A program made the position numbers and the translations under genes. A DNA stretch of 64,000 nt from Hydrangea macrophylla (Eukaryota; Streptophyta; Magnoliopsida; Cornales; Hydrangeaceae). Positions 5,266-52,922 of this stretch are shown here, piece by piece. How positions within the stretch are numbered: position 1 is the first letter of the stretch; each line of letters begins with the position of its first letter. The stretch lies in assembly GCA_033977485.1 (NCBI GenBank), contig CM066983.1:104779080-104843079 (forward strand), given 5' to 3'. The notes below the pieces were generated by a model. That model was not told the DNA's origin, did not search any database, and was given only the letters and a program-made list of their open reading frames with translations.

Positions 5266-7303
5266 TATAACACCGGCATTTGTGTTATTATATTTTATTA
5301 CATTGTCATGCATGATAATGTGATGCTTTGTGTCTTATAACACCTGTGAGAGTGAGCTTTGACTTACGAGTTGATTGGGTATCTGTGTTAGAGAACCCTC
5401 TGAGACGATGTGAATGAGAGTTTGGATGTTGTAAAGTTTATCCAAATATGAGATTTTCACTGTGGAATACTTAAATGTTTATCTGAAAATAAATGTTTAC
5501 CTGTGTATTTCAATAACTGTATTATTTCTGTTGTTAGTTTTAGTATCCTGGTAAGGACGAATTAACACGCTATTAATTTGGTAGGCTAATTAGCAACTTC
5601 GGAAAAGTCATATAAGAATTTGCGTTTTTGCAACCAAACGGAACTTAGTCAGAAACTTTATAATTTTGAGATTTCACTTTTAAAGGTATGAATTAGTTGT
5701 GTAGAAAGTTTCAGAGACTAATTAGGAGTTTTGAAAACTCGTGGGGAGGTAAACACAATTTTCAGAAGTGTTGCCTATATAGATAGAGATGACTTTCATG
5801 TTTTTATAAGTTCTTGACCTAAGTTTCAAAAAGAGGTCAAATGGAGATTTCAGTTGCTTAGAGCTTCACGATGCCAAACGACGTCCGTTCGTCCGCTGAT
5901 TTTTCATCAAATTTTGTATTCGATCTACTCAAGGTAAGGCCGTCGTTTTGGTACCTATTAGGCCTTGTTTGCTCAACTTTTCCGAAAAGTGATTTTTTAG
6001 AAGTTTTCATAAAAGTTGATATTTGAACTTTTGATCCATAGGAGTTATACTAGACGAACTTCTACATGTTCTTTGTGCACGGGTTTTCTTCGAATTTGTA
6101 TTATAGGAGCGTTATTCGGAGGTGAGTGATTCAACTATGTTGTTGGAATGATTCTTGACATGTATTCATGTTTTGTGTGAATAACATGTGTTAATTCATA
6201 GAGATATATTATGTAGTTCATATTGGGCAATAATATTGATAAGTAGGCCCAGTGAAATGTCTTATTTACCAAGAACATGGTGATATGTATTTGAGCATAT
6301 TAAGTTGCTTATTTGGGTCGAAGGAACACGTAGTTACCAAGCCATCTTGTGGAGCCGATATAGGCATTAAGGTCGCACGATTGAAGAAAAGAATCGTGGG
6401 TCTTACCCTTTCGTGTGAACTTATTGGCGAGGAGTCGCGGATTGGGAGTATGGATATATGTGGTTATTCAAATAACCATTTCAGGTGTTAATGCCAGCGA
6501 GGAATCGGGGAAGTGAGTACATGGGCTTGGGAGTTCAATTAGAAGATGACTTGTCATGTTTATCCCGTAGTTTTGTAATCGAATCGTCTATTTCATTTGT
6601 TTTGTTAAGGAACTTGTAATAGAAATGGATAATAGTCTTGTGTATGTTTTATTTTAGTTCGAAGTCCTGTAAGGAATTACTACGCCTGGTATTGACTTTG
6701 AAACCATGGTTTGGGTTGATTAAGTTACTGCGGAATCTGAACCCGGAGTTTATGTTTTGAAATGTTTTACTTGTCGACTTCATGTTTTGATTTAATGTTG
6801 AGATCGTTTGCGATCGCAAGGGTCACTTGACCTCAGGCAATATCCTAGTGCAAGAAGGATTGCTGTCAAGGGGTCATTCGACCGGTCGAAAGAGACAATT
6901 CGACCGGTCGAAAGAGACAGCTCGACCGGTCGAAGTGCCCTCTACTGTGAAGGATTATTGCCGAGGGGTCATCCGACCGGTCGAATGGGGCATCTCGACC
7001 GATCGAAACGACCCCTACATGAAAACTTTTTATACCCCTTCCGCAATTTATTTAAATGTTTTGATTGGTTCTTAGGTCACCTTTGGGACCCCTTTGAATA
7101 TAAATTCATTTGTTTCAAAATATAATTATGGTTTCAAATTTATACGGATTTTACCAGCTTCGGGTGTATTGTTTTAAAAGAGCGACTACTCGTTGTTATC
7201 TTTAAAGTTTTTTTTCTGCTGCTACAACTTTGAAATAAGTAGGAAGAGCCTCGGTGGCGTGCCACGGGTTTCGGTTCTACTATTGTGGGACCGGGCTGTG
7301 ACA
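5266..7303 (+). repeat. Gypsy A 5' LTR
   Basis: Runs from TATAACACC to GGGCTGTGACA and is repeated at 15392-17533. It is 2038 bp, about 104 bp shorter than its partner, mostly because a segment present in the 3' LTR near 16610-16725 is missing here between 6452 and 6470. It holds an extra palindrome unit near 6900. A weak TATA-like TTTTTATAC lies near 7026-7035. Confidence 0.92.
6877..7005. promoter_or_regulatory. CGACCGGTCG palindrome array in the gypsy A 5' LTR
   Basis: Five copies of the palindrome CGACCGGTCG (the first two extended to TTCGACCGGTCGAA, the last with one change) are centred near 6883, 6905, 6927, 6978 and 7000. Spacings are 22, 22, 51 and 22 bp. The array ends about 20-25 bp before the TATA-like string near 7026. 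Regular two-turn spacing suggests binding sites for a dimeric protein on one DNA face. That function is inferred. Confidence 0.75.
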
Positions 7304-7308
7304 TTTAG

Positions 7309-7320
7309 TGGTATCAAAGC
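7309..7320 (+). other. Primer-binding site, gypsy A
   Basis: TGGTATCAAAGC lies five bases after the LTR end and matches the usual plant initiator tRNA-Met complement TGGTATCAGAGC with one change. It primes minus-strand DNA synthesis in LTR retrotransposons. Confidence 0.85.
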
Positions 7321-7565
7321 TTTAGGTTTAGAACATTGGGAACGAGTGACGTTATATGCTGAGTGACGTCGAGTGGAGTGTATATTTATGACGATAATGT
7401 TGTTATCATTGTTGAAATTGTTTATATGTTAGAATTTGTTAATTATGATGATGATCTATGCATATATATATATATATATATATTGTGGCATGGCATGCAT
7501 AGTCTTTATGCATTGTACTCAACAAGGTAAATACTTGAAACATTTTGGCTGATCTGGTAAGAGAG

Positions 7566-8690
7566 ATGTCACCGCATTCGCGTATGGATCAGAGAGTAAA
7601 CATGGTGGGAGATTTTATTCTAGCTGTAAGTGAAAGAGATCAGATGAATGTTCAGGCTCCAACAGTTGAAATTCGTTATATCAATGCATCACCGGTACCG
7701 ATAGCTTAACACACCATCGTAGAGCAATTTCATAAACGGAAACCGACTTTGTATCACGAACAAGTTGACATAGACTTGGCCGATCATTAGATGATGGACA
7801 TGGAAGGACATTTTTGTACTGTGATATGTACCGACGAGTAGAAAATTATGTTATGATCCGATACGTTGATGGGCGAAGCATTGGATTGGTGGAATAATGT
7901 TCTAGAGCAAGGGAAGCCAACTACGTGGGAGGCATTTAAGGATGATTCAACAAGCGTTTCTTTTCGCAATCTGCATATACTCAGAAACACCAAGAGTTTA
8001 CAAGTTTAGTCCAGGGAGACATGACTGTGAGTGAGTATGTATCCCGTTACAATGCCTTGTTACGCTTTGGGAAAACTACCTTTCCGACTGTGGGGATAAG
8101 GCTCGTAAGTTTGAGGAAGGGTTAAGGAGAAAATTTGTAGCCGTGTGGACATGTTGCAACACCCGACTATTTCTCTAGTTGAGGAAGCTGCCCGTATTGT
8201 TGAGAAAAGTGTCGATCGCTATCCACAAGGACAACAAGGAAAGAGAGCAAATGACAATAGGGGCAAAAGCCAAAGAAATACGAAGAAACCGTTTACACAA
8301 GGTTCAGAATCGAACATGGGTAGTCAGGGAGGGAGTACGTTCGTAGGAGACTCGAGACCGTTATACCCGACATGTAACATGTGACACAGAGGAACCTGCT
8401 GTCAATTGAGCACGTGTTACCTATGTAAGCAATTAGGGCACATCTCCAGAAATTATCCTTTGAATGCAAATTCGACTACACCGAACACCACCTCGAATAC
8501 CAAGAGCTACAACCCAGAGATGGGAGGGAAATGTTTTGAGTGTGGCCAACTGGGACATATAGCGAAGAACTGTCCGAGTAAGACACAACCAAAAATGAGC
8601 ACCGGGGCATCGAGTATGCCGAGTGGATCGAAGGCAAGGCAACGAGTGGATAAAGGAAAGGGAGTCGAGCAACAAGGACGATACTTCCAG
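7566..8690 (+). pseudogene. gag: Gypsy A gag (capsid and nucleocapsid), broken
   Basis: Structural protein that packages element RNA. Conceptual reading in shifting frames shows gag-typical segments: MDMEGHF near 7793, GEALDWWNN near 7873, TWEAFK near 7923 and a MTVSEYVSRYNALL-like stretch near 8023-8060. Two zinc knuckles follow. The first (from about 8415) has its last Cys changed to Tyr (CX2CX4HX4Y). The second (from about 8532, CFECGQLGHIAKNC) is an intact CCHC. Several stops and frameshifts interrupt the N-terminal half, so no functional Gag can be made. The ATG at 7566 is a guess. Confidence 0.85.
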
Positions 8691-9505
8691 CTCAGGCCGG
8701 GGAATACGGATGATACCGTCGTATCAGGTATTCTTCCTATTTGTTCGTATCCTGCACGTATACTCATGGATTCTGATTCCACGCATTCATTTGTATCACG
8801 TGACTTTATTAAGCATTTATCTGTTAAGTCTGAACCGCTAGGATATGATTTGTGTGTATCATTGCCTAGTAGTGAACCGTTAGTAACTTCTTTGGTATTC
8901 AAGTCGTGTGAGATCAAGATAGGCGATAAGGTCTTGAGTGTTGATTTGATTCCATTGATAGTGAATTACTTTGATGTTAACTTGCGTATGGATTGGTTGT
9001 CGGTAAATCAAGCCAGAATTGATTGTGAACAAAAGCGAGTTAGTTTCTATCCATCAGGACAAGAAGAGTTTACTTTTCACGGTAAGGATGTGATCGTACC
9101 GCCGTACTTGATATCAATGATTTAAGCAAGAAAGATGCTGAAGAGAGGTTGTTCGGGTTTCTTATGTTCGATTATTGACACAAGAGTTCTTGGACCACTA
9201 AGAAAAGACATCCCAGTAGTTCGAGAATTTTTAGACGTTTTCCCAGATGAGTTACTCGATGTATTGATTGAAAGGGAGCTTGAGCTCACGATAGAGGTAG
9301 TAATAGGGTCACAACCGGTATTTAAAGCACCGTACCGAATGGCACCTGTAGAATTGAAAAAATTGAAAATTCAGTTAGAAGAACTGTTGGAAAAGGGTTT
9401 TATCCGACCGAGTGTTTCGCCATGGGGAGCTCTATTCTTGTTTTTTAAGAAGGATGGTACAATGCATATGTGCATCGACTATCGAGAGTTGAATAAGTTG
9501 GCCGT
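8691..9505 (+). pseudogene. pol: Gypsy A protease and N-terminal reverse transcriptase, broken
   Basis: Continues in the zinc-knuckle frame. The aspartic protease site near 8766-8785 reads LMDSDSTHSFVS, where the family usually has D-S/T-G-A: the Gly is Asp and the Ala is Ser, so activity is doubtful. One in-frame TAA at 9123-9125 then interrupts. The frame resumes unchanged into the reverse transcriptase N-terminus, with PYRMAP, EKGFIRPSVSPWG and the conserved MCIDYRELNKL near 9470-9500. Coding is cut at 9505 by the D1 insertion and continues at 12766. Confidence 0.9.
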
Positions 9506-11725: not shown

Positions 11726-11736
11726 GTTTATATAGG
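11726..11736 (-). promoter_or_regulatory. TATA box of D1
   Basis: On the minus strand CCTATATAAAC matches the position and context of GCCTATAAAAG in D2. The sequence downstream on the minus strand becomes rich in AGAGAAAG and CTTTCTTC, like a 5' leader. It probably marks the LTR promoter. Confidence 0.5.
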
Positions 11737-11878
11737 CCAACTTGGGGTGGTTTTGGGATTTAGAAAGTATTCCCATTGGCTCCAAATATATGAAATCATA
11801 AAACTATGTCGTTTTGGTTTTTGATTAATCAAAATGGGACCACAAAACAAATTAAAAAAATACACTGCTCTGGAGGGG

Positions 11879-11917
11879 AGTGCCGCGGCGGCACTGGGCC
11901 AGTGCCGCGGCGGCACT
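11879..11917. promoter_or_regulatory. GTGCCGCGGCGGCAC repeat pair in D1
   Basis: Two copies of the near-palindrome GTGCCGCGGCGGCAC are centred at 11887 and 11909, 22 bp apart. They stand out in AT-rich DNA and sit about 145 bp upstream of the D1 TATA box on the minus strand. D2 has the matching array at 23436-23529. Confidence 0.6.
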
Positions 11918-11949
11918 GCTCCTCCCTCGTCTAGATAATGCTGTTTAAG

Positions 11950-12540: not shown

Positions 12541-12765
12541 TTTTTTTAAAACTCATTTAAATATTTTTCTTACGACGTAGCATATTTCCAGAACTTTGGG
12601 ACCAAATCTGGGAGTTTTATGGCTTTCAGGGGCATTTCGGTCATTCTGAGCATTTTGAGAAATAGAACCAACTTCCAGGAGTCCTTTTGAGTCCTTTTCG
12701 ATCATTGTGAACCACCAAGCTATGGGTCTCCTAAATCTGATAGCCGACAAAATGGGGTGTCTACA

Positions 12766-13663: not shown

Positions 13664-15360
13664 ACGGATCATCACACAACGAGATTTGAACATGAGGCAA
13701 ACATATTGTTAGAATTGATGAAGGACTATGATTTGTCAATCCAGTATCATCCGGGCAAGGCGAATGTAGTCGTCGATGCTCTTAGTCGTAAAGCACCAAC
13801 CAACATAGCTTCAAATATGACTTCTCAGAAAGAATTGATTCGAGATATGGAGAATTTGGAACTTGAAGAGTGATTCCGAGAATTGAAAGTGGCTTGATGT
13901 CAACGATTGTGGCTTACCACTTTTAATTCATGAGATCACGGAGAAACAATTTCAAGATGCGGCTTTGAAGAAGATTTGTGATGAGACTCCAATGGGAAAC
14001 AACTAGGATTTGCTTTTAAGAATAATATTTTGAGATTGAGGGGACGAATTTGTGTACCTAACGAGAAAGAGTTGAAATGGAATATCCTAGAGGAAGCACA
14101 CAATACGAAGTATACCATTCATCCAGGGAGCACCAAGATGTATAGAAACTTGAGATATGTTTATTGGTGGCCTAGAATGAAGAGAGAAATAACACGCCAT
14201 GTTTCACGTTGTACGAGTTGTTAATAAGTGAAGGACGATCGCCAAGTACCTTCGGAATTGTTACAACCGTTATCGATAGCCGAGTGGAAATCGGAACACA
14301 TTATAATGGACTTTGTTAGTGGGTTTCCGAAGTCGAAGAAATCAAATACTATTATTTGGGTGATTGTTGACCGTTTGACGAAGTCGTCGCACTTCCTACC
14401 ACTTCGAACAACTAAGCCGATGACGTTGGCTAAGTTGTATATCCGCGAGATTATAAGACTACTTGGTATTCCAGTTTCTATTATTTCATATAGAGATAGT
14501 AGTTTTACATCGAAGTTTTGAAGAGCCTTGCAAGAAGCAATTGGTAGCAAATTGCATTTCAGTACCGCTTTTCATCCTAGCTCAGATCGATGGTCAATCG
14601 GAAAGAGTAATCCAAATTTTAGAAGACGTGCTTCGGTTATATATACTTGATTTTCACGGTGATTGGGAAGACCATTTTTCATTGATTGAGTTTGCATATA
14701 ACAATAATTTTCAGTCAAGTATTGGGATGACTCCTTACGAAGTTTTGTATGGTCGCGTATGTCGTTCGCCGATTAGTTGGACGGGAGTCGGAGAAAGAAT
14801 GATTGAAGGGCCAAAAATTGTGTAAGAGACAACAGACAAGATAAAGGTGATTCGACAACAGTTACTGACAGCTCAGAGTAGGTATAAGAGTTGTGCTGAC
14901 AAGCGTAGATGACCGTTGGAATTTGATGTGGGAGATTTAGTATATTTGAAGGTATCATCTTCAAAGGGGATTACTAGATTTGGGAGATACGGGGAACTCA
15001 ACCCGAGGTACATAGGACATTTCGAAATCATTGGGAGAGTTGGACCCGTAGCGTATCGTTTGAACTTGCCGAATGAGTATGCCCAAGTTCATAACGTATT
15101 CCATATATCGTTATTACGAAAACATTTAGCGGAGGATAGAGAGCAAGTGATGACTCGCCGAATGAGATTCAAAGTGATTTGACGTATGTTGCGTATCCGG
15201 TAGAGATTTTGAATCAGAAGGATCAAATCTTGCGAAATAAGGTGATATTGAAAGTGAAAGTGTTATGGCGTAGCCAAACGACAGAATAGATGACATGGGA
15301 AATAAAGGAGGAGATGCGTACTCAGTATCCGCACCTTTTTGAGACACGAGGTATAAGTTT
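13664..15360 (+). pseudogene. pol: Gypsy A RNase H end, integrase and chromodomain-like tail, broken
   Basis: RNase H remnants (HPGKANVV near 13750, then DALSRK) lead to the integrase zinc-binding region with HPGSTKMYRNLRYVYWWPRM and CTSC (about 14110-14222). The DDE core follows: MDFVSGFP (first Asp, ~14310), SYRDSSFTSKF (second Asp, ~14490) and, after a frameshift, DGQSERVIQILEDVLR (Glu, ~14590-14640). The C-terminal part has FDVGDLVYLKV, PRYIGHFEIIGRVGPVAYRL and VHNVFHISLLRK. A stop at 15180 precedes a chromodomain-like stretch (VLWRSQT ... TWEIKEEM) ending near 15345. At least three breaks disable it. Confidence 0.9.
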
Positions 15361-15376: not shown

Positions 15377-15391
15377 TAAGGGAGAGAGTAT
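15377..15391 (+). other. Polypurine tract, gypsy A
   Basis: AAGGGAGAGAGTA lies immediately before the 3' LTR start at 15392, the position of the plus-strand primer in LTR retrotransposons. Confidence 0.75.
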
Positions 15392-17533
15392 TATAACACC
15401 TGCATTTGTGTTATTGCATTTTATTACATTGTCATGCATGATAATGTGATGTGTTGTGTCTTTGACACCTGTGAGAGTGAGTTTTGACTCATGAGTTGAT
15501 TGGGTATCTGTGTTAGAGAACCCTCTGAGACGATGTGAATGAGAGTTTGGATGTTGTGAAGTTTCTCCGAGTATGAGACATTCACTGTAGAATACTTAAA
15601 TGTTTATGTAAAAATAAATGTTTACCTATGTATTTCAATATCTGTATTATTTCTAGTTTAGAATTGATTTCTGTTGTTAATTTTAGTATCTTGGTGATGA
15701 CGAATTAACACGCTGTTAATTTGGTAGGCTAATTAGCAACTTCGGAAAAGTCATATAAGAATTTGCGTTTTAGCAACCAAACGGAACTTGATCTGAAACT
15801 TTTATAATTTTGAGGTTTCACTTGTAAAGCTATGAATTAGCTGTGCAGAAAGTTTCAAAGACTAATTAGGAGTTTTGAAAACTCGTGGGGAGGTGAACAC
15901 AATTTTCAGAAGTGTTGCCTATATATAGATAGACATAACTTTTATATTTTTATAAGTTCTTGACCTAAGTTTCAAAAAGAGACCAAATGGAGATTTTAGT
16001 TGCTTAGAGCTTTTCGACGCCAAACGACGTCCGTTCGTCCGCTGGTTTTCCACCAAATTTCGTATTCCAACTCCTCGAGGTAAGGCCGTCGTTTTGATAC
16101 CTATTAGACAGTGTTTGGGCAAGTTTTTCGAAAAGTTATTTTCTAGAATTTTTCATAAAAGTTTATATTTTGACTTTTGATCCATAGGAGTTATACTAGA
16201 CGAACTTCTGCACGTTCTGTGTGCACAGGTTTTCTTCGGATTTGTATTATAGAAGAGTTATTCGGTGGTGAGTGATTCAACTATATTGTTGGAATGATTT
16301 CTTGACATGTATTCATGTTTTGTGTGAATAGCATGCGTTAATTCATAGAGATATATTATGTAGTTTATATTGGGCAATTATATTGATAAGTAGGCCCAAT
16401 CGCATGGTGAACTGTCTTGTTTACTGAGAGCATGGTAATATGTATTTGAGCATATTAAGTTGCTTATTTGGGTCAAAGGAGCACATAGTTACCAAGCCAT
16501 CTTGTGAAGCCGATATAGGCAATAAGGTCGCACAATTGAAGAAAAGAATCGTGGATCTTACCCTTTTGCATAGACTTATTGGCGAGGAGTCGTGAATTGG
16601 GAGTATGGAACGTACACGTGAGACTCCGAATACTAGTATGAAATGTAGAGATGTGAATGAGAGTATGCTTATCATTCATGTGCATATGTTGTTTTATTCA
16701 CTAAGTGTTAGCTTAAACAAATCGAAATAACCATTTCAGGTGTTAATACCGGCGAGGAATCGGGGAAGTGAGCACATGGGCTTGGGAGTTCACTTAGAAG
16801 ACGACTTGTCATGTTTATCCCGTAGTTTTGTAATCGAATCGTCTATTTCATTTGTTTTGTTAATAAACTTGTAATAGAAATGGATAATAGTCTTGTGTAC
16901 GTTTTATTTTAGTTACAAGTCCTGTAAGGAATTGCTACGTCTGGTATTGACTTTGAAACCATAGTTTGGGTTGGTTAAGTTACTGCGGAATCTGAACTCG
17001 GAGTTCATGTTTTGAAATGTTTTACTTGTCGACTTCATATCTTGATTTAATGTTGAGATCGTTTGTGATCGCAAGGGTCGTTTGACCTCATGCAATATCC
17101 TAGTGCAAGAATGATTGCTGTCAGAGGGTCATTCGACAGGTCGAAAGGGACAACTCAATCGGTCGAAGTGCCCTCTGCTGTGAAGGATTATTGTCGAGGG
17201 GTCATCCGACCAGTTGAACGGGGCATCTCGACCAGTCAAAATGACCCTTGCATAAAAACTTTTTATACTCCTTCCCCAACTTATTTAAATATTTTGATTG
17301 ATTCCTAGCGCACCTTTGGGACCCCTTTGAATATAAATTCATTTGTTTCAAAATATAATTACGGTTTCAGTTTATACGGATTTTACCAACTTCGGAAATT
17401 GTTTCAAAAGAGCGACTACTCGTTGTTATCTTTAAAGTTCTTTTTCCGCTGCTACAACTTTGAAATAAGTAGGAAAAGTCTCGGTGGCGTGCCAAGGATT
17501 CCGGTTCTGTTATTGTGGGACCGGGCTATGACA
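15392..17533 (+). repeat. Gypsy A 3' LTR
   Basis: Starts TATAACACC and ends GGGCTATGACA, followed by the duplication TAATA. It keeps a segment near 16610-16725 (ACGTACACGTGAGACTCCGA and onward) that the 5' LTR lacks but the 31-kb LTR remnant has, so the 5' LTR carries a deletion. Many single-base differences from the 5' LTR indicate an old insertion. Confidence 0.92.
17132..17239. promoter_or_regulatory. Decayed palindrome array in the gypsy A 3' LTR
   Basis: Four degenerate copies of the CGACCGGTCG palindrome are centred near 17138, 17160, 17211 and 17233, giving spacings of 22, 51 and 22 bp as in the 5' LTR minus one 22-bp unit. Several changes are CG to CA or TG, as expected from decay of methylated cytosines. 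Confidence 0.65.
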
Positions 17534-17538
17534 TAATA

Positions 17539-23007: not shown

Positions 23008-23435
23008 GTTGAAGTTTCTAGCTCTCTGCCTTTTATTTTTGCCTAAATTTTCTTTAATTACCGTTTCCATCATCATGGTGACAGATCCACCTACGGATGG
23101 GGGCAAGCATGATGCTGCCAATCCTTATTTTCTCCACCACTCAGATCATCCTAGAATGGTTGTAGACACCCCAATTTTGACCTAACGTCGAATTTAGGAG
23201 AGTGTCACCTCCGTATCCGATGATGACAAGGACCGAAAAATTGAAGTATTCCAAGCTCTTCAGAAAATCTCCAAAACGCGATAAAATTTCACAGAAAGAG
23301 GAAAAATACCAGGTATTCAGGAGAATTCAGGAAAAAGACATGATTTTTTGGAAAGGATCTTCAAAAATAATTTGTTTCAAAAAGAGAAAAGACCTAAAAA
23401 GGGGAATCTCACCAAAAAACGGCACACGGCGGATT

Positions 23436-23529
23436 CCGCGGCACTCGATGAGTGCCGCGCGGCAGTCAGAAAGTGCCGCAACGGCATTCACGGACTGCCG
23501 CGGCAGGTTTCTAATTGCCGCGCTGGGCA
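23436..23529. promoter_or_regulatory. TGCCGC-type palindrome array in D2
   Basis: About five palindromic units centred near 23438, 23458 (TGCCGCGCGGCA), 23480, 23500 (CTGCCGCGGCAG) and 23522 recur every 20-22 bp. They lie about 100 bp upstream of the TATA box at 23630. The block is very GC-rich in an AT-rich LTR and could also fold as RNA hairpins. It matches the array in D1. Confidence 0.65.
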
Positions 23530-23629
23530 GCAGTCTGTCTAATTTCAGAAAGTACACATTGTACCACCAAATGAGAGAATTACACCTGTTTTTTGCTCCG
23601 AAATTCACCAAAAATAGCTGGTATTTTTG

Positions 23630-23638
23630 CCTATAAAA
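23630..23638 (+). promoter_or_regulatory. TATA box of D2
   Basis: CCTATAAAAG, followed within about 120 bp by A/G-rich leader-like sequence. It is in the same relative place as the TATA box of D1. Confidence 0.55.
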
Positions 23639-25209
23639 GAGAAGGGATCTTGTTGGTAAGGGAGGACCAAGAGAAAAAGGCATTTGGGGGGGGAAAACAT
23701 ATACAAAAAACACTTCCATAACACCCACATTTGAGAAGGAAAAGAGAGAGTTTTGGGAGAGCTTGAAGGAGAGTTTGGATAATCTTCAAAAGAAAACTTT
23801 GAGGATAATTTGGAGGTGATCCTCTAAACCTAGATTATTAGCTTACTCTTTCTTCTCTTGAAATCTTTAAATCTTAGAATATTTCATCATCTTTCTTTGT
23901 TTTAAACTTAGTAGTCTTTTTTGTTCCCAATACTTCTTTTTTTTTTTTGTGTCTATCTTCTTCTCTTAAAGGTCTTGGAGATCTTCAATATCTCTATTGA
24001 TCTCTTGAGCATGATCCTTTGAATCTCATGTAAGCTCATGCTCTACATGGAAGTCAAAACTTGATCATCACTTTATTTCACATAGATAGGACCCAAGTCC
24101 ATATTCATGACTTGGATCCTCTAAACTTGGTGTCTCATGGAATCATTTCCATATTCCTTTGAAAACTACCAAGTATTAGTTGCACCTTCATCTCCAATGA
24201 CCATTAAATGGTAGGAGAATATAGTTTTGAGTCTAAATCCATCTCCATGGTTTAGATTTCCCTATCCTTTAGATTTCATGAAGTCAATCCATGTTTCATT
24301 TGAAATCTATGAAGAACAAAGGTTTGTAGTCTCCCATGGCCATCAAATGGTAGGAGAAATGGTTTGGTTTAAACCCAACTTCATGGTTTAATAGTTGGAG
24401 TTACCAAATAAAAGTTGAACTAGCAAAATAAAAATAGTGAATTCACAAACTGTTTTTGATCAAGGATTTTTAGTTCGAAATCTAACCGTTGAAATTAAGT
24501 GAAACCAACGGGAAAGCATTAATAACACATTACTCTACCACTGTAATTTTTGTTTTGAGGTGGTTTCATGTTTAGAATGGTTTGATCATGGTTTTTGTGA
24601 AGCAATAGCAATCTGTCCAGAATTTCAGAATAGTTTCAGAACAGCAACACTCTTTTGAAATAATTAAATCAGAGTTCTAACAAAGTTTCTATGACCCAAA
24701 ATAATTTTTTCCAAGTAGATTAATGTGTTAGGAAGCCACCCTAAAAAGAACAAAGCAATTCAGATTTTTTTACTATTTTTAATAAATCGTGCAAGAATTC
24801 TGGACAGGAGATTGTAAGATGCTGAGTGATGTCTAGTGTTTTCCATATTCCCGGAGATCTAACCGTTGAAACCTTGATTTTCTTTTTAATTTGGAAACTA
24901 GACTCACAGGGGCATTTTGTGTCCAAAATTCATCAACATCAAACCATAAGAGACGTGCTTTTTATTTTCTTAAAGGTCTGGTTTGCTCTCTGCAATTTTC
25001 AGAGTTTTATGATACACTTGACCAACTTTGGTAATAATGGGTCAAAAGGTTTTTCTATAACTTATGGCTTAAATCATGCTTCAATAATGATTAGTTGAGC
25101 TTAGATTCAAAGTTTAAGAGTATTTCATAGTTTATCCTTGTCCATGTACATATTCATCCATATGGTTTGACACTTGTAATTAAGACTTATTTGCTTTGGA
25201 TTTAATTAA

Positions 25210-25599
25210 GGGTAAATTACCTTTTACCCCCTTGTGGTTTGCCTCTATGGCACTTTGGCCCCCTGTAGTTTGAAATGTAACACATAACCCCCCTGTAGTT
25301 TGCCTCTGTGTCACTTTACCCCCCTGTAGTTTAAAATGTAGCACATAACCCCCTTGTAGTTTGCCTCTGTGGCACTTTACCCCCCTATAGCCAAAACAAA
25401 TTGCTTAAATGACCAATAATTACAGGGGGGTAAAGTGCCACAGAGGCAAACTACAAGGAGGTTATGTGCTACATTTCAAACTACAGGGGATAAAGTGTCA
25501 CAGAGGCAAACTACAGGGGGGTTATGTGTTACATTTCAAACTACAGGGGGCCAAAGTGCCATAGAGGCAAACTACAAGGGGGTAAAAGGTAATTTACCC
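25210..25599. mobile_element. 390-bp long-hairpin TIR element nested in D2
   Basis: Ends GGGTAAATTACC and its inverse, with the perfect 9-bp duplication TTTAATTAA (25201-25209, 25600-25608). The arms (about 25210-25387 and 25418-25599) are almost perfect inverted repeats around a short loop. Each arm is built of three tandem ~60-bp modules alternating TGTAGTTTGCCTCTGTGGCA and TTGAAATGTAACACATAACC. The 9-bp TSD fits a Mutator-like MITE. It is the youngest layer in a three-deep nest (copia, D2, this). Confidence 0.88.
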
Positions 25600-27330
25600 T
25601 TTAATTAATTACATTAGATAGATGTAAGCTAGAAATTTAGGATTGTTATTTCTAACATCGTATTTTGCATATCATGTGGACTAACCCTTTGTTTTGTAGC
25701 GCTATTAAGGTACGATTTCTCGATCCCTCTCTAGTTTATTAAATTTCTTGATTTTATTTGATTTTTGACCTTAATGCGCGACACCTTAGAATTAGGTTTT
25801 GCCTTATGTGTATATGTGATTAGAGACTCTTTTTAGGATTTTCTTTTGTTCGCATGCATTGCACGTTTATTATCGCTGCTGGATCCCGGGTAAGTTCACT
25901 TGTTCTCTATTGCATATCATATCGCTTGTTACCTGAATTATGTGGCTTTTGAATGATATTTTGTCAATTGCAATTTTACACCCTTTGGACATGCTTTTGT
26001 GATGTATATGTATATATGTATTAGTTGAGGGCATGCTTAGATTAATAAATTTGATTAAAAGGATGTTGAGTAGAGGCCTATCGCAAGATAGGATGAGAGA
26101 GGGTGTTTTAGTCCGATGGGCTCCTTCCTCTCTCATTCCATAATCCCCGGACCTAGTTAATCTCTGGTTTCTAAAAGATCAGTTTGCTTTTAAAATGGTT
26201 TCTTAATTTCCCTTTTAAAAATTAAGTGGCGACTCATTTTGTTTTAGAAATTGATTTTGAAAAGCTGTGGGTAAGTCAAAACCTGCGATATCCACAATGG
26301 TGCTTATTTTCCAAGCCCCTCAATGGAGATAATTATTCAACCTGCTGTTGAGCTATGACCATCTCTTTAAACACTAAATCAAAGTTGGGTTTTATAGATG
26401 GTACCATCACAGTGCTGTCTGCCAAGACCAAACCAGACGACCATGCATCTTGGAAATGATATTATCCTATCTTGGATCCTCAATTCACTCACACCGGATC
26501 TTGCCGACAATATTATATATTCAATCACCGCTCGAGAGGTATGGGAAGACCTTTGGGATTGCTTTTCTTAAAGCAATGCCCCTCATGTTTTCCAAATTGA
26601 GAGGGACATCGCTTGCCTCGCTCAGGATCAGATGAGTGTTGCTGCCTAAAGATGAAAGGTTTATGGGATGAACTGGGTTCTTATAATGGTACTGTTTGTT
26701 CTTGTGGGGCTGACCATAGGAGACGCAAATTGATGCAATTTCTCATGGGACTCAATGTGTCATATAGTGCAATCCAAGGCTAGTTACTATTGATGAATTC
26801 GATGCCTGATGTTACGAAGGCCTACTTTTCCATTGCACAAGAAGAGAAGCAGCGAAGCCTGGGCGCTGCACGTGAGTCAACGGAAACCGCAGGCATGACT
26901 TTTCAAAGAGATGAACATGTAGCCATGGCTGTCCGGCCAGGACAAGGTTCTTCTTCTTCTCGTTCCAACTCGTTTAACAAACACAATTACATTTCTCTAA
27001 CTGTGATCAAGACCATCATGTGCGAGAGACATGTTGAAAATTGAATGGGTATCTGTTAGGACACCCAAAACATAAATCCAACAGGTTCAATCAAGGAGGC
27101 AATCATTTTAAGCACACCAATAACAATCAGTCTTCAGCCAATAATGTCAAGGAGGGTCCAACGATGCAGGAGATGTACTCGGTGATGAATGGGCTCTCTG
27201 ATTTGCAATTCGAGCAAATATTATCTATCATGAATGGTAAAGGAACATCACAATCCGCCAACCCTAAGGCTAATGCTGCTGGCACTTCTTCAGGTTTGGC
27301 ACAAGAACCGTTATGCCTCCATCGATTAAT

Positions 27331-30898: not shown

Positions 30899-32936
30899 TG
30901 TTACAACCCGGTCCTACAATAGCAGGATCGAAGCTCGTGGCACGCCACCGAGACTAAGCCAATTCATTAACGTTCCCAAAAAAATTATTTTAAGAACACA
31001 CGCAGCGGAAGGAAAACAAAACATTTTGAAGAGCAGCAGTCCAGTCGACTACACCTTAGGCCAGTCGACTGATACTGGTCTAGCAGAAAGTTTGAATTTA
31101 GAACATAATCCAGTCGACTGTTTTCTATGTCCAGTCGACTGGGGCTTCAAATTTTCAGTCGACTGGTACAGTCTGGTAGACTGAAGTCCAGCTTAGACAA
31201 AAATATATCTGATTTGAAAACATGACCTAGTCAACTGGGTCGAGACTGACTTTCTATAAAAGAATGCAGTGAGTTGCTGGAAAAGAGGCTCCAATCAACT
31301 GTTTTCTCAACCAGTCGACTGGTTTATGGCAGCAACACATTCTGCAGAAGTTTAAAAGCTTTATGAAAATCTCCAGTGACCAATTACACATTCCACACCC
31401 ATTCCAAAGTGATCCTAACTGTATCATAACATTACTAAAACATAATTACAATATGTTACTATCTATTACAACATCTCGAATCAAATCTACGATTCTAAGT
31501 TAAACATAGTCATAAGTCATTAATCCTTATTACAGCGTCGCAAATCAAAACTACAAGATAGGCATGATAAGTCGCCTTCTACCAGAGCTCCCAAACCCAC
31601 GTGCTCACTTCTGCAACTCCTCGCCGGCATTAACACCTAAAATGGTTATTTGAATAACCACACATATTTCGATTTGTTTAAGCTAACACTTAGTGAATAA
31701 AGCAACAAATGCACCTGAATGATAAACATGCTCATATTCACATCTCTACATTTCATACTAGTCTCCGAAGACTCACGTGTACGTTCCATACTCCTAATCC
31801 TCGAATCCTCGCCAATAAGTCCACGCGAAAAGGTAAGACCCACATTTCTTTTCTTCAATCGTACGACCTTAATGCCTATATCGGCTCCACAAGATGGCTT
31901 AGTAACCACGTGCTCCTTTGACCTAAATAACAACTCAACATGCTCAATTTACATGCCACCATGCTCTCGGTAATTAAAAAATTTCACGTGCTATTGGGCA
32001 TACTTATCAATATAATCGCCCAATATGAACTACACAATATATATCTATACTAACACATGCTTTTCATATCACAACATGAATACATGTCAAGAAATCATTC
32101 CAATAACATAGTTGAATCACTCACCTCTGAATAATGCTCTTATAATTCAATCCAAAGAAAACATGTGCACAAAGAACGTGCAGAAGTCCGTCTAGTACAA
32201 TTCCTATGGATCAAAAGTCCAATTATTGACTTTTATGAAAAATTCTAGAAAACAACTTTTCGAGAAACTTATCCAAACATGGCCTAATAGGTATCAAAAT
32301 GACGGCCTTACCTCAAGGAGTTCGAATACGAAATCTGGTGAAAAACAAGCGAACGAAGGAGCGTCATTTGGCGTCGAGAAACTCTAAGCAACTAAAATCT
32401 CCATTTTGGCCTCCTCTTGAGTTATAGGTTAGAAGTTATAAAATATCAAGATTTATCTCTATCTAAATATAAGCAACATTTTTCAAAATTGTGTTTACCT
32501 CCCCATGAGTTTCAAAACTCCTAATTAGTCTCTGAAACTTTCTACACAGCTAATTCATAGCTTTACAAGCAGAACCTCAAAATTATAAAAGTTTTCACGT
32601 AAGTTTCGTTTGGTTTCTAAAACACAAGTTTCTACATGACTTTTCCAAAGTTGCTAATTAGCCTATCAAATTAATAGCATGTTAATTCGTCCTCTCCAGG
32701 ATGCTAAAATTAACAACAGAAACATATTCTAAACCAAAAAATAATACAGATAGTGAAATACACAGGTAAACATTTATTTTCAAATAAACATTTAAGGTAT
32801 TCCACAACAAACGTCTTATACTCGAAGAGACTTCACAACATCCAAGCACTCATTCAACACAGTCTCAAAGGGTTCTCTTACACAGACACCCAAATTGACT
32901 CGTGAGTTAATACTCACTCACACATGCCAAAATGTC
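30899..32936 (-). repeat. Minus-strand gypsy LTR related to gypsy A, truncated
   Basis: Read on the minus strand, it ends CCGGGTTGTAACA and contains the same blocks as the gypsy A LTRs, including CTCGGTGGCGTGCCACG and the segment missing from the gypsy A 5' LTR (31680-31800). The first ~80 bases of the LTR are missing: similarity stops near 32936, where a tandem-repeat unit starts. No internal domains flank it, so it is a solo or truncated LTR. Confidence 0.82.
31041..31321. promoter_or_regulatory. CAGTCGACTG palindrome array in the 31-kb LTR
   Basis: Palindromes CAGTCGACTG or close variants are centred near 31046, 31066, 31115, 31136, 31160, 31176 (gapped), 31232, 31296 and 31316. The clearest spacings are 20, 49, 21, 24 and 20 bp. 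The array occupies the position of the CGACCGGTCG array in the related gypsy A LTR but uses a different palindrome. Confidence 0.7.

Positions 32937-41804: not shown

Positions 41805-41838
<34 letters not shown>

Positions 41839-43437: not shown

Positions 43438-43440
<3 letters not shown>

Positions 43441-43477
<37 letters not shown>
43441..43477. repeat. CT microsatellite in a captured leader
   Basis: About 18 CT dinucleotides, followed by a C/T-rich stretch up to the ATG at 43565. CT-rich tracts are frequent in plant 5' leaders. The frame through it (Leu-Ser repeats) is not a protein. Confidence 0.75.
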
Positions 43478-43478
<1 letters not shown>

Positions 43479-43564
43479 TCCCTGCCGTCTTCTCACTCTC
43501 TCTCTCGCCCCTTCCTCTCACATCTGTGTCTGTATTCCCGTCGACATCCCTCCGGCTTTTCATT

Positions 43565-44880: not shown

Positions 44881-44899
44881 GTCTTTATGGGGTCCATTG

Positions 44900-47700: not shown

Positions 47701-48121
47701 CCATGGGTACGGGCAATTACTAGTATATATATATGAAACCGGAGGATCTGAAATTTGCCACGTGGCAATCAACTTTCAAAACCCATCTGTGTAAATCTGT
47801 GTAAATGAAAATGAAAATTTCTTAAGAGGTTCAATTCTCTCGCTCTCTCAATCAACTCCCTCTCTCACGCAACCCTTCTCACCTCCTCCTCTCTCTCTCT
47901 CCTCAATCAACCCTGATAATTTATTCTTTCGTTATATATAGGAACCCAATCATAGGAAAGTCATTAATTTTTTCAAATGAATAACAAATCAAAAATTACA
48001 AATCATATAATCAGATTATCATGTAAGAGAAATCAAACATCCCAATAATTCCAGAGTTCTCGCTTTATCTCTCTCTGCCTCTCGAGATTTCAGGCATCGC
48101 TTTCCACGAAAGTCGCGGACT

Positions 48122-48217
48122 ATGGGTACCACCACGACCACCGATTGGCGCACCACCACCGGCAACTTCGCCTCTCTTATCCCTCACTTCCAATCCCTAA
48201 CCCTTATTCATCCCTAG
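48122..48217 (+). pseudogene. Short ORF in a gene-like leader within Helitron B
   Basis: ATG 48122 opens a 31-codon frame beginning MGTTTTTDWRTTTGNF and closing at TAG 48215-48217. It follows a C/T-rich leader (47830-48080) and lies in sequence of higher GC than its surroundings, so it may be the start of another captured gene. No homology is recognised. Confidence 0.25.
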
Positions 48218-49219
48218 CTCCCTAACCTTAACCCTAGCCCCCAATTATGAAATTAAGTGTGAGTGTTATCATGGCCACCGCCTGGATTTATTTATTTTCA
48301 ATTCTAAAATTCAGTATATCATGGTTAATTTCTTAGTGACTGATTTTTAACATGCTCTCAATTTGTTCTTAGCAGGCATGGTTCATTTGTTGTTGGTATA
48401 TGCACCCTTCACCTTCTTATTTCTTTTTATTTATATGCACCTTTCATTTTCTTTAATAAAAAAAAATTCATTTTAAAATCTGTTTGGTAATCGTGTTGTT
48501 TCATTGTATTGCAGGGGATGAGAGAGTGTGAATTCCAAAACCATTTGACAATGATGGTCAAGATAAAAATCTTTGAAGCTTTGGTGTGGAAGGGAATAGA
48601 TTGAGCAAAATGAGGTACAACTATGTTTTAGAATTGTTTCACCATTATCTGTCTACTTACACTTTGGAGAATTTTGTAGACATTTGGTTTGTGAGCAATG
48701 TCTTCTTTTCCAATTCGTTTTTCAATATTTCTCGGCTTAACTTCGATTCGCTGAAATGCTAAATTCCTACATGTTTTTTTTTTGTCAAATGATATTACAC
48801 CTTTACTATTCTGACTCCATACATATGACACACTTCATTTGCCAATACTTATTCTCTCATTTCCCAATTTTTTTTGTTTTGTTTGTGTTTTTTCCTCCAT
48901 GTAGCTCCCATTCTCTTTTCTTCATGGAAATGCTTATTTGGTTCCTAATTCTTGATTTGTATTTTATTTTACTCTTCTCTTTACACATACATTGTGTAGC
49001 CATATGTGAACATTTGAACACGTGTATAAGTTGTGGATGGCTTTATTTTCTTTGAAATCTACTTTGTAATCGTTTGTGGATCAATTTATCATTGAGGGTT
49101 GTGATCTTTATGTATTAAATTATATATACACTTAGCTTCACCAATTTTTTTTTTATAATACTCCAATATTTTATATTTTTTCAAAAAAAATATTTCCCGT
49201 GCAATGAACGGGTTCACTA

Positions 49220-50948
49220 TCTTGTGATAAATTTAAACACGAGGCTCAAGCATTGGTGTATTTTCATCCTTAATGATTAAGGTTTTTCGAAAGGTCTTTA
49301 GCCACTTTCATTTTTGAGAGTTTCAAGATGTTATAAAAATTTCGAATTTTGAAATTCTTCTTACTTCAATAAAACTAATCTGGAAGTAATATCAACATTA
49401 AGCTTCATAATCAAAAAGCATTTAAACTCCAACACTCCTTATGCATTCAGCAAATTGCAGGGTTATGGTTCCCAAAATTGGTTCTTAAATGCTTTAATGG
49501 TGGATGAAAGTGCTTACAATTTTGACATGACAGATGTTTTGGGGTCTGAGCTTCGTTATATGTTTGTTTCGTTTTTGATTTTGCTTGCGCTTGCAGAACC
49601 CGTGAAGCTATTCACGGAAATAGATATAGTCTCCAAGCCATGATTTTGTTTGGTATTGAAGTACTAGCAAAGCCACCTAATAAGGATCAGCTCTTGCCTT
49701 AGAATAGAGGCAGTCCCCTATAAATAAGGTAATAGTGTTATTTTAAAATTTGTAATGTCCCAAGTTAGTATATTTCACTCCAAAGCTCATGATTCATTCT
49801 TATAGTAAATGTGGGGTTGAAAATTGGAGCATTAAAAATCTCAATGTGGCAGCTTGAACAGGAAATTTTGGGTTTTTTTATTTCATGACTATGATTGTGA
49901 GTATTACCGGTTTGAATTATAGTGAATGTGAAAGCATTTAGTTTTAGTCATGATTTTGGGTTACTTTGGCAAACACTTTTGTTCAGTGATTATTAGTAAA
50001 AGCATTTAGTTTAGTTGGTGAGAGTCAAAAGCTTATCATTTATGCACTCGGAAACTTAATGGTGTTTGTGAATGAATTGATTCTTTGCCTATCATCTATT
50101 CAAACAATTCTCTTTATTCAAGATTTTAATTGTTTGCATTTGAATCTTATTCCATTCTCTTATTTGAATTGATTCTTTGTCTATCATCGGTTTCTTGGTA
50201 CTTAACAGAGCATGTAAGATAAATTTATTTATTTATTTCAGTTTTGTTTTAACTTGGGCAAGGCGAAAAAAAAAAGGGTGAATGAAGTTTTTGTATGAAG
50301 AATTCTCATTTTCTTCGTCATTTGCGGCTAATTGAATAAGGATCAGTTTCTTGAGAGAGAGAGAGAGAGAGAGAGAGGGGGAGAGAGAGAGAGAGAGAGA
50401 GCGCTCAGACTTTTCCTTCAATTTTTTTTTTTATATTCTTTCCATTCCCTTAATAAATTCACGAAAGCAAGCTATTCATTGGCTAGGTGAATGGGATTTG
50501 CCACTTTATTGCAGTTTTTAACAAGATTTTTAAATGGGCAGGTGAATGGGGACAATTCAACAGGTCTGGCTTTTACTCCACATTTCATCAATATTGTAGG
50601 CTACTACAACTAGGAGTTCTAAGGCTAGGAACACGAGATTAGAGTACGTGTTGGAGGATTTGAAAATTTACTTGAAAGATGACACTTTTTTTTCTTCTTT
50701 GCATTGGATTTTTTTTAGGTTTTTGCTATTATTGTAATTGTTTTTACTATTATTGAGAGACATTAATTAGTTGAAAATAATGTGATTTTGGAGGTTGATT
50801 AGTAATCAGCTCTACACTTCGTGTAAATACATTGTTATTTATTTCTTTGTACAACATGACATAAATGCATTGTATTTTTTTTTTCAAATTTGTTTGTTTA
50901 GCAAACTTTTTACGACATCCACAATGGTTTGGAGAGTTCTATAAACCA
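49220..50948. other. Segment of Helitron B lacking genes
   Basis: AT-rich, with a GA microsatellite at 50353-50401. The open frame at 49455-49643 has no recognised domain. If the read-through interpretation of Helitron B is right, this is captured flanking DNA. Confidence 0.35.
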
Positions 50949-51137
50949 TAGGGGTGTTAAACCAACACTGAAACTGAACCGACTGACCAATCTGATTGGT
51001 CGATTTTAAAAAAAATACCCTAAGTTGAAAATCGAACCGAGCGATGGAATTCGACCAAAATTCGACCGATTTGGTCAGTTTTTAAAACATGAAAAAATCG
51101 GAAAATAACCGACCGAACCGACCAATGAACACCCCTA
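50949..51137. mobile_element. Small hAT-type element with GACCG/AACCG subrepeats
   Basis: TAGGGGTGTTAAACC and the minus-strand end TAGGGGTGTTCATTGG are inverted. The perfect 8-bp duplication ATAAACCA sits at 50941-50948 and 51138-51145. The inside is filled with GACCGA and CCGACC motifs. 189 bp, no coding capacity, nested in Helitron B. Confidence 0.85.
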
Positions 51138-51328
51138 ATAAACCACATCGAGGCATAGATTGGAAGTAAAAACAATGTTTTTAAAAAAAAAAAAAAAATT
51201 TGATTTTTTGTATTTGGGGTTTAGCCTTTTGTTTTTCCTTGCTCCGTGCCCACAGGCACGGGCAATTACTAGTAATCTATTATGCCACTATATACACTTT
51301 TACAATGCATCATTCAAACACCAAAAAG

Positions 51329-51871
51329 TAGGGGTGGGCAAACAGTTCGGTTAACCGAACAAACCGAACCGAATTTTCAATTTCAGTTCGATTATTTCAG
51401 TTAAAAATTTCAGTTCGGTTAAAAACCGAACCGAATTAAAAATTTCAGTTCGGTTATCAGTTGCCTATAGGCAAACCTAACCAAAAAACCGAAATTTTTT
51501 TTTTAATTTTTTTTTCTATATTATTAATATACTTATACATAACTATAGATAATAAAATATAAGTATTTTTACAATTGAAAATAAATAAAAGTATGCTTTC
51601 TTTGCAATATGAAAGAGAAAGGAAAAAAAACATTAAAAAGTTGAGAAAAAAAAAAATAATGATAATAATAAAAATTGGGTTTTTTACAATTCAGTTAACC
51701 GAATAAACAAACCGAACCGAATTTGTAATTCAGTTAACCGAACCGAACAAACCGAATTATATTTCAGTCAGTTAACACTTGATAATCCTCCAAACCGAAC
51801 CGAACTCAAACCGAACTGAATAGTGCCAAACCGAACCGAACCAAACCGAACCGACCGAATGCCCACCCCTA
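51329..51871. mobile_element. hAT-type element with AACCG subrepeats
   Basis: TAGGGGTGGGCAAACAGTTC and the minus-strand end TAGGGGTGGGCATTCGG are inverted. The perfect 8-bp duplication CCAAAAAG sits at 51321-51328 and 51872-51879. Subterminal arrays of ACCGAACCGA flank an AT-rich core. 543 bp, non-autonomous, inserted in the right part of the family C copy. Confidence 0.9.
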
Positions 51872-51970
51872 CCAAAAAGCTCCATAATATATTTTAATCA
51901 TAATCTATTTTGATAAATGAATCGCAAAACTATTGTAATCGCAAAAGCTTAAGCTCCTCCAAACAAGCCC

Positions 51971-52480
51971 AATAACTGCATATGCTTTGCTAAGCAATCT
52001 AATTATCTAGGTTTCAATTTTTAATTTTTTTTTTTTTAATTGTAACCACAAAATACAGTGGCCACATCATGATTCACGAGCACTGATATAATAATTTCCA
52101 ATCATATACATTGTATATATATGTTGAATGTTTTGAAAATTGGACCATTTGGTGAATCGTAAAAATGATTTGATTATGAGTTATTGGTTTCACCGTTGGG
52201 TCAACTAGAGTTGAACCGTAATATCATCTATATTATATAATAAATATTAATTATAATTTAAAATAAAAAATAAGAAAAAACAAAATAAAAAATTTAAAAT
52301 TTTTTGGATATCCTGTTCAACTACTGATTTTTCTGATTCAACTGTCGAGTTTTTCAATTTTCAAAAAATAGAACTGTTTTTGGAGTTCTCCTGTTCACTA
52401 GGTCAAACTTGACCGTTTCTTGAACCGGTTTATAACCCAATTAAGTAGTATAAAAATAAAACTAATAACCCAATTAAAAT
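51971..52480. other. Intergenic DNA, no gene seen
   Basis: AT-rich. GGTTTCACCGTTGGGTCAACTAG near 52187 and TTGACCGTTTCTTGAACCGG near 52409 resemble plant MITE ends and may be paired, but the arms are too diverged to delimit. Confidence 0.3.
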
Positions 52481-52726
52481 TGTCACACCCCAACCCGCCC
52501 TAGCGGATTAAAACACGTGTAACAAGACTATACACACCCAAAAATTACACACTAATTAGGAAGAAATGTGAAATAAACCACTTTCACAAACTTTATTGTA
52601 TCAAAACAGCCCCAAGGGCAAAATGGTCATAAATAAAGTATATCAAATTTTATGTCAAAAGATAGGTCTTTGAGTCTAGGTTCCAACGCACAAAACGATG
52701 TGCGAGTCTGACTTTTCTAGAAAAAT

Positions 52727-52734
52727 TTATATAC
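52727..52734 (-). promoter_or_regulatory. TATA box of the 52-kb LTR
   Basis: TATATAAA on the minus strand, about 35-40 bp downstream of the last GGATCGATCC palindrome. Likely the LTR core promoter. Confidence 0.55.
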
Positions 52735-52768
52735 GTTTCCGTAAGAGCGGACGTGAAAATTTGTGACC

Positions 52769-52922
52769 GGATTGATCCGCCCTTTATAGCTGGATCGATC
52801 CATCTTTTTATTCCTCTCGCAGATTGTCCCTTAAGAAGTCCGGATCGATCCATCTTTTTAATTCTTCCGCAGTTTGTTCTTCAGAATTGCCGGATCGATC
52901 TGCCCTTACCCTGGATCGATCC
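52769..52922. promoter_or_regulatory. GGATCGATCC palindrome array in the 52-kb LTR
   Basis: Five copies of GGATCGATCC (two with one change) are centred near 52773, 52796, 52846, 52896 and 52917: spacings of 23, 50, 50 and 21 bp. This matches the ~22 and ~51 bp spacings of the gypsy A array although the palindrome is different. The sequence between sites also repeats (CATCTTTTTA, TTCC..CGCAG). Confidence 0.75.

Follow-up and report, generated by a model that had tools for sequence, protein, structure and literature searches.

Arrays of short palindromic words in long terminal repeats of Hydrangea macrophylla, with an apparent exchange of the array block within one LTR family

Introduction

Why should several long terminal repeats (LTRs) lying near one another in a plant genome each carry many copies of a short palindromic word, and why should the word differ from one LTR to the next? 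The question is raised by a stretch of 64,000 nucleotides of Hydrangea macrophylla DNA (NCBI GenBank assembly GCA_033977485.1, contig CM066983.1, positions 104,779,080 to 104,843,079 of the forward strand), referred to here as the window. It is rich in adenine and thymine, LTR elements are abundant in it, and every comparative statement made below has this one 64-kb window as its basis. Five loci were inspected: the retrotransposon gypsy A with its two LTRs, an LTR at 31 kb, an LTR at 52 kb, a solo LTR at 23 kb and the 3′ LTR of a gypsy element at 62 kb. Four of them had been preselected for carrying arrays in a first-pass annotation of the window, and a score of five out of five is not a rate. 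We confirm that the arrays are real and lie far above chance, and we describe two LTRs of a single family that differ by the very block in which the array resides.

Results

The palindrome arrays

Three exact words with dyad symmetry, CGACCGGTCG in gypsy A, CAGTCGACTG in the 31-kb LTR and GGATCGATCC in the 52-kb LTR, stand out from the rest of the window. Palindromic 10-mers containing all four bases were counted per 400 bp, exactly or with one mismatch and with at least one exact copy required; words lacking one or more of the bases, for example (AT)n, were excluded. Five words reached three or more copies, namely CAGTCGACTG with six, CGACCGGTCG and GGATCGATCC with five each, and two further words with three copies, one of them exact. 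The first three are the only such 10-mers in the window with at least four copies or near-copies per 400 bp. When the window was shuffled 30 times in 2-kb blocks with dinucleotides preserved, the maximum was three copies, reached in two shuffles. Local shuffles of each of the five arrays never matched the observed count of the top 6-, 7- or 8-mer, complement included (0 of 500); array 4 holds seven copies against a shuffle maximum of five, and in array 5 a 7-mer or its complement occurs 17 times against a maximum of seven. All four of the word sets named in the first-pass annotation, in the gypsy A, 31-kb, 52-kb and 23-kb LTRs, are present in the sequence, and array 5, at 60.5 kb, was missing from it. 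No palindromic 10-mer is repeated inside either piece of the single copia LTR pair in the window.

An array block that differs within one family

The annotation had placed the arrays in unlike LTRs. This does not hold for two of them: outside a block of about 600 bp, gypsy A and the 31-kb LTR belong to one LTR family. Identity is 83% where 32924-31785 aligns to 5345-6454 and 31667-31546 to 6454-6575, and 84% at the 3′ end of the gypsy A LTR, where 30955-30899 aligns to 7247-7303; from LTR position 90 to 1316, 1025 of 1222 bases are common to the two, and at the 3′ end 48 of 58. Between these stretches no homology is detectable, the best local score of the two blocks being 24 against a mean of 22.3 and a maximum of 32 in 200 shuffles. 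The left border of the replaced block is sharp, and each of the two blocks contains an array with its own distinct word.

The distance from the LTR end to the first palindrome is about 420 bp for gypsy A, 419 bp for the 31-kb LTR and 436 bp for the 52-kb LTR (corrected LTR ends make this one base less for the 31-kb LTR and one base more for the 52-kb LTR). Measured back from the LTR 3′ end, the three arrays begin at about 420-437 bp and finish at 150-300 bp. The arrays of the 62-kb and 23-kb LTRs start about 1.65 and 2.86 kb, respectively, from that end. The difference between gypsy A and the 31-kb LTR suggests that one module was exchanged for another and the position retained. The proposal that similar layouts endure under changing words is supported, and this pair is stronger evidence for it than the annotation had; within-family replacement of the block is a new element with respect to the published arrays discussed below.

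Words, flanks and decay after insertion

The eight words of the 31-kb array are 88% alike in pairwise comparison, against 28% for the twenty bases that flank them, a value near chance. Flank identity is 52% in gypsy A and 39% in the 52-kb LTR, and it is the flanks that give the informative figure, because the words were selected by similarity.

The two LTRs of gypsy A, in which 1847 of 2013 aligned bases are identical (91.8%; 5266-7304 versus 15392-17534), allow the fate of the words after insertion to be followed. Word bases differ at 8 of 40 aligned positions versus 155 of 1901 outside the array, CpG sites have changed at 8 of 15 in the array versus 27 of 70 elsewhere, and the array differs in length by exactly one 22-bp unit. 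Four of the five words are perfect in the 5′ LTR and none of the four in the 3′ LTR, where six of seven word departures are C-to-T or G-to-A. With the word assumed to be ancestral, and for this single element, the eight departures are divided one to seven between the 5′ and 3′ LTRs (P = 0.016, one-sided). Changes outside the words, polarised by the 31-kb LTR, number 52 in the 5′ LTR and 41 in the 3′ LTR; the LTR with the better-kept words is not the one with fewer changes outside the array.

Spacing and tandem duplication

The spacings reported by the first-pass annotation are present in all four of its arrays, although its list for the 31-kb LTR omitted the intervals of 72 and 64 bp. Centres are 22, 22, 51 and 22 bp apart in gypsy A and 23, 50, 50 and 21 bp apart in the 52-kb LTR; in the 31-kb LTR the series in window order, with two copies of two mismatches included, is 20, 49, 21, 24, 72, 64 and 20 bp, and in the 23-kb LTR successive TGCCGC starts are separated by 21, 22 and 20 bp. 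The short spacings have a mean of 21.6 bp. Compared with random placement, spacings of 20-24 bp are in excess with P values of 0.006 (gypsy A), 0.0024 (31-kb), 0.06 (52-kb) and 0.017 (23-kb), and a combined P of 0.0002 without gypsy A, which does not constitute an independent test because the range was picked after the arrays had been viewed. A Rayleigh test on ten spacings, with the duplicates in gypsy A and the 52-kb LTR merged by hand and the intervals of 64 and 72 bp in the 31-kb LTR excluded, gave p = 0.08 at a period of 10.5 bp, 0.014 at 10.0 bp and 0.38 at 11.0 bp.

Local tandem units measure 22 bp in gypsy A, 50 bp in the 52-kb LTR, 21 bp in the 23-kb LTR and 114 bp in the 62-kb LTR. 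The equality of spacing therefore stems in part from local tandem duplication in the first three. Since two close pairs in the 31-kb array share a spacer end (GAGAAAA / ATAGAAAA), some duplication has occurred in that array too.

Folding, CpG content and place within the LTR

Folding was predicted in 150-base windows of the LTR-sense strand only, with z-scores from 25 shuffles each. In five of six LTRs (gypsy A 5′ and 3′, 31-kb, 52-kb and 62-kb) predicted folding energy reaches its minimum for the LTR at the array; in the 23-kb LTR this place goes to an insert resembling a miniature inverted-repeat transposable element (MITE), with the array second. The best array-window z-scores are -4.9 for gypsy A, -3.3 for its 3′ LTR, -6.8 (31-kb), -4.8 (52-kb), -6.6 (23-kb) and -4.5 (62-kb). 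Five of six arrays have a CpG density of 6.4-18.1 per 100 bp, versus 1.1-3.0 in the remainder of those LTRs. The arrays of gypsy A and of the 31-kb and 52-kb LTRs are situated 79-92% of the way along the LTR. In LTR sense, TATATAAAT is found ~36 bp downstream of array 3, and TATAAAAG, at 23632, ~110 bp downstream of array 4.

The elements and their assignment

Coordinates are collected in Table 1. The gypsy A 5′ LTR is followed by TGGTATCAAAGC, which we take to resemble a primer-binding site. An open reading frame (ORF) for gag and protease at 8406-9125 matches zinc knuckle and RVP_2 protease models in Pfam, and 14082-14770 has 63% DNA identity to pol of the 62-kb element. In the latter, RT_RNaseH, H2C2 integrase and SH3_Tf2-1 domains are recognised, together with a Chromo match of 22.9 bits, under the Pfam cut-off of 25.1. 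The models matched in the two elements are gypsy in character.

All six LTRs end in ACA. At the U5 end, the 52-kb and 62-kb LTRs have G at -6 and GGG at -10 to -8; G at -6 is also present in gypsy A 5′ and the 31-kb LTR, with two of three G at -8 to -10; gypsy A 3′ shares the latter but has A at -6; and in the 23-kb LTR -6 is T and GAT stands in place of GGG. In the type A U5 attachment site of Del/Tekay elements, positions -1, -2, -3 and -6 are conserved and GGG occupies -8 to -10 (PMC4029996); our comparison assumes that -6 is G in Del, the source stating only that this position is conserved. Judged on LTR length and U5 end, the gypsy A, 31-kb, 52-kb and 62-kb LTRs appear Del/Tekay-like, and the ends of the 23-kb LTR differ from theirs. 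The 23-kb solo LTR is bordered by a 5-bp target duplication, ATGGT, at 23156-23160 and 26297-26301.

Table 1. Positions of the arrays, the replaced block and the LTRs in the window.
Feature	Position	Strand	Remarks
Array 1	6879..7005	+	CGACCGGTCG x5 (4 exact, 1 with one mismatch); gypsy A 5′ LTR
Array 1, gypsy A 3′ LTR copy	17134..17238	+	4 words, each with 1-2 mismatches; one 22-bp unit fewer
Array 2	31042..31321	-	CAGTCGACTG x8 (5 exact, 1 one-mismatch, 2 two-mismatch); 31-kb LTR
Array 3	52769..52922	-	GGATCGATCC x5 (3 exact, 2 with one mismatch); 52-kb LTR
Array 4	23434..23525	+	TGCCGC x4, GCGGCA x3; 23-kb LTR
Array 5	60515..60808	-	TCGCGCG/CGCGCGA words in ~114-bp repeat; 62-kb element 3′ LTR
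Replaced block, 31-kb LTR	30956..31545	-	~590 bp; counterpart in gypsy A 6580-7246, ~670 bp
Gypsy A 5′ LTR	5259..7303	+	Start judged by eye; LTR-to-LTR distance about 10.1-10.25 kb
Gypsy A 3′ LTR	15388..17533	+	Pairs with 5′ LTR
31-kb LTR	30899..32932	-	No adjoining internal domain; gypsy A family; upper end apparently truncated
52-kb LTR	52481..54897	-	Alone in window; upper end judged by eye; putative LTR without established target duplication
23-kb solo LTR	23161..26296	+	Starts with TGTAGACACC; within apparent copia gag
62-kb element 3′ LTR	59161..62164	-	Gypsy element; weak chromodomain match (ORF 62210-63085, minus strand)

Other features were noted in passing. The ~114-bp unit repeated in the 62-kb LTR joins TCGCGCG words with TATA-like boxes, in the manner of a whole promoter that has been multiplied. 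The MITE-like feature inside the 23-kb solo LTR (25202-25608) is an inverted repeat of 407 bp with CCCCCTGTAGTTTG-type units and 90% identity to its own complement. At 51344-51860 a 16-bp palindrome, GTTCGGTTAACCGAAC, is found ~440 bp from a AACCGAACCGAA-type tandem repeat, with a weak three-copy palindrome cluster, and at 57006-57083 an inverted repeat contains two perfect palindromes, one of 24 bp and one of 20 bp, with TTATGTGAAATTTCACATAA in common and 40 bp between their centres.

Searches in other sequences

Pairs of CGACCGGTCG were found in 16 stretches of the IMG/VR database, with a GC content of 51-71% and long open frames, which we take as bacterial or phage. One GC-rich contig (L003) carries 15 copies in about 475 bp at 8214-8688, and three others have clusters of 6 (L002), 7 (L010) and 6 (L016) copies that span about 0.5-0.7 kb; all of these may represent operator or partition sites of phages or bacteria. 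The 14-mer GGTGGCGTGCCACG occurs in at least 120 IMG/VR stretches. An integrase query against IMG/VR gave no confirmed locus, and an integrase alignment gave a single one (L017), the gypsy-like part of which is a 244-bp end of a GC-rich contig. Of the retrieved loci, only L017 had a blastn match to the window (E up to 1e-5), in pol and not in an LTR, and no usable plant LTR was present among the loci. For the open frames across two of the arrays, with one and two candidate proteins, no matches were obtained at E up to 10.

Discussion

We read the arrays as cis-regulatory modules of long LTRs, the probable multi-site target of a dimeric host DNA-binding protein and likely also a target of small-RNA silencing, a combination that would favour replacement of the module as a whole. 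This is the reading we prefer, tentatively, and we would put its chances somewhat short of even. A module would repeat one short palindromic word several times, often in pairs ~21 bp apart, and a dimeric host protein bound at multiple palindromes would drive or gate transcription from the LTR. The same region would be a likely silencing target, because the arrays are in most cases CG-rich and, as RNA, repeated palindromes pair with one another. The conflict between activation and silencing could then give an advantage to copies whose entire module has been exchanged or expanded anew, and template switching is the proposed route. In Arabidopsis, co-packaged RNAs of the LTR retrotransposon Onsen have been shown to recombine; most recombinants within LTRs match the first template switch and one lies in U3 (PMC5668417), and template switching is plausible here because Onsen RNAs recombine. 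Protein binding, promoter activity, silencing, escape from silencing and the template-switching route are thus what we infer from the arrays, from the block that differs in one pair of LTRs, from the one-unit difference within gypsy A and from the predicted folding minimum at the array in five of six LTRs, all of which the sequence shows. On this reading the window would contain a Sirevirus-like module in chromovirus-like LTRs, swapped as a cassette. A more ambitious version, which we consider unlikely, is that unrelated plant LTR superfamilies have converged on a cassette built from a few copies of a CG-centred palindrome of arbitrary sequence, paired at a distance of two helical turns and replaced as a unit in one family, such that the recognition code would rotate to keep a dimeric activator whilst shedding recognition by small RNAs.

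A number of points weigh against the preferred reading. The sample of five loci is biased, because four were supplied for having arrays. Replacement as a cassette would be based on a single LTR pair, and the right border of the replaced block is soft (60% identity across the 94 bases aligned in the final full window ahead of the conserved end). The similar array position in three LTRs is a descriptive agreement, not set against chance, and is limited to those three because the arrays of the 62-kb and 23-kb LTRs sit elsewhere. The 31-kb array is not CpG-rich, with 2.4 CpG per 100 bp and an observed/expected ratio of 0.52, and the words are not protected after insertion, because in the gypsy A pair their bases differ more often than bases elsewhere. 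Helical phasing, on which the first-pass annotation had relied, is not accepted: p is 0.08 at 10.5 bp, and a distance of ~50 bp amounts to 4.76 turns. TATA boxes near the arrays are no more frequent than expected by chance: a TATAWA motif is present inside the array or up to about 110 bp after it in four of five LTRs, with random-placement P values of 0.15-0.64 per LTR; the limit of ~110 bp was fixed after inspection and the box of the 23-kb LTR is at its edge. Moreover, in the Del element Retrosat2, U3 comprises only bases 1-244 of a 3.3-kb LTR (PMC3485330). With so short a U3, the gypsy A, 31-kb and 52-kb arrays, far along their LTRs as they are, may fall in R or U5, and their position upstream of a promoter is less sure. 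The arrays are accordingly no more than candidate promoter or enhancer modules, and may or may not lie before the promoter. Lastly, the clusters of Sireviruses begin 200-400 bp from the start of their LTRs (PMC2829016), a position that only the 23-kb array shares.

The closest published parallel is nevertheless with the Sireviruses, in whose LTRs repeated palindromic motifs are clustered upstream of the TATA box with a word that differs per element (Bousios et al., 2010; PMC2829016). As here, words of 10-20 bp are present in multiple copies, for example CGGTCGACCG in a Vitis element and ACAATCGATTGT in Tnd-1. The annotation's statement that no such shared LTR device had been described must therefore be given up in its general form; it stands for gypsy LTRs to the extent that no description of palindrome arrays in them was found among the matches listed, which covered titles and abstract openings and left subscription journals largely uncovered. 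The five palindromes, used as text strings, likewise returned no plant-LTR paper among the matches listed. Sireviruses are Ty1/copia elements and the motif has been called Sirevirus-specific relative to classic copia (PMC2829016), whereas at least three of the carriers here belong to gypsy: the 62-kb element and gypsy A, by the type of their domains, and the 31-kb relative of the latter. The Sirevirus definition requires, in addition to dyad symmetry, at least eight copies per element; the three exact words occur 5, 8 and 5 times per LTR, with 1, 2 and 1 mismatches allowed, and these counts are per LTR only because two of the three are lone LTRs. The CGG-CCG core is absent from CGACCGGTCG, CAGTCGACTG, GGATCGATCC and TGCCGCGGCA, of which CGACCGGTCG and TGCCGCGGCA contain CCG and CGG in reverse order; Tnd-1 also departs from this core within the published set (PMC2829016).

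Several other systems share parts of the pattern. The long chromovirus LTRs of Del/Tekay contain a CpG-rich, poorly conserved block of variable length (Cruz et al., 2014; PMC4029996), and this plastic CpG island has been suggested to be a moving target for silencing. The main text of that paper does not contain 'palindrom', 'tandem', 'inverted repeat' or 'repeated', and it reports no CpG island in the eudicot group. Tnt1/Retrolyc1 subfamilies are alike except in the U3 regulatory region (PMC1838419), although these are copia elements and 'palindrom' does not occur in the text. In crapaud of Podospora, one LTR family has variants that have diverged in one half of the LTR (PMC10787394); here the host is a fungus, and the opening of the abstract does not mention palindromes. 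The cis-regulatory arrays of several transposable-element families are sometimes palindromic, according to a passing remark in PMC10760457.

What else could give rise to such arrays? They could act as hairpin RNA that feeds small-RNA production, with turnover as escape and with no need for a protein on the DNA word. The folding z-scores of the array windows, between -3.3 and -6.8, are consistent with this, and a silencing trigger has been proposed for the LTR palindromes of maize Sireviruses (reported in PMC5311732 and PMC10760457). A hairpin requires complementarity only, however, and not one 10-bp word kept eight times amid unrelated flanks, and silencing alone should select for loss of the structure, as PMC10760457 remarks. 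We regard this explanation as improbable, yet as the best placed of the four alternatives.

Slightly less probable again is that the arrays are by-products of mutation, slippage and unequal exchange having produced functionless repeats of 20-22 and 50 bp in the fast-evolving middle of the LTR. The tandem units of the gypsy A, 52-kb, 23-kb and 62-kb LTRs are what such a process would leave, as are the 22-bp unit gained or lost between the LTRs of gypsy A, the spacer ends common to two 31-kb pairs and the decay of the words after insertion. It does not readily account for palindromic symmetry in five LTR loci, each with a different word, for dissimilar flanks around most of the conserved words of the 31-kb array, or for three LTRs with a similar distance from array to end.

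Retroviral RNAs dimerise via palindromes. The words might by analogy be kissing-loop sites for dimerisation and packaging of genomic RNA, which would also promote template switching, an idea we consider very unlikely. It would suit the perfect palindromes and predicted hairpins, block replacement would be the expected outcome of template switching, and three of the arrays would lie in the RNA leader if U3 were as short as in Retrosat2. Five to eight copies exceed what dimerisation needs, and the TATA box of the 23-kb LTR comes after the array, which would place that array outside the leader.

Least likely, if only just, is that the words bind a co-evolving, element-encoded demethylating protein, as VANC does at the tandem motifs of VANDAL: short tandem noncoding motifs that vary considerably between related elements are the same signature (PMC5735166, PMC10398659), against which VANDALs are DNA transposons with a known cognate protein, the VANC motifs quoted are non-palindromic and in a single orientation (PMC5735166), and no candidate extra protein was seen among ORFs of at least 150 amino acids (six of seven scanned) in elements that are decayed, present as lone LTRs or truncated where the window ends. 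The possibility that the palindromes are insertion targets (PMC6911290) was rejected, as the Tekay row in that source is not significant (0.61) and the arrays lie within LTRs.

In conclusion, should the pattern described here prove to be genome-wide, gypsy elements would share a feature that has been called Sirevirus-specific. Two LTRs that correspond outside the palindrome block but not within it would then amount to a natural swap experiment, the same element with a different word. Such a pair could show whether the arrays recruit a specific protein, attract small RNAs, or both, and whether LTRs evade silencing through the exchange of modules.

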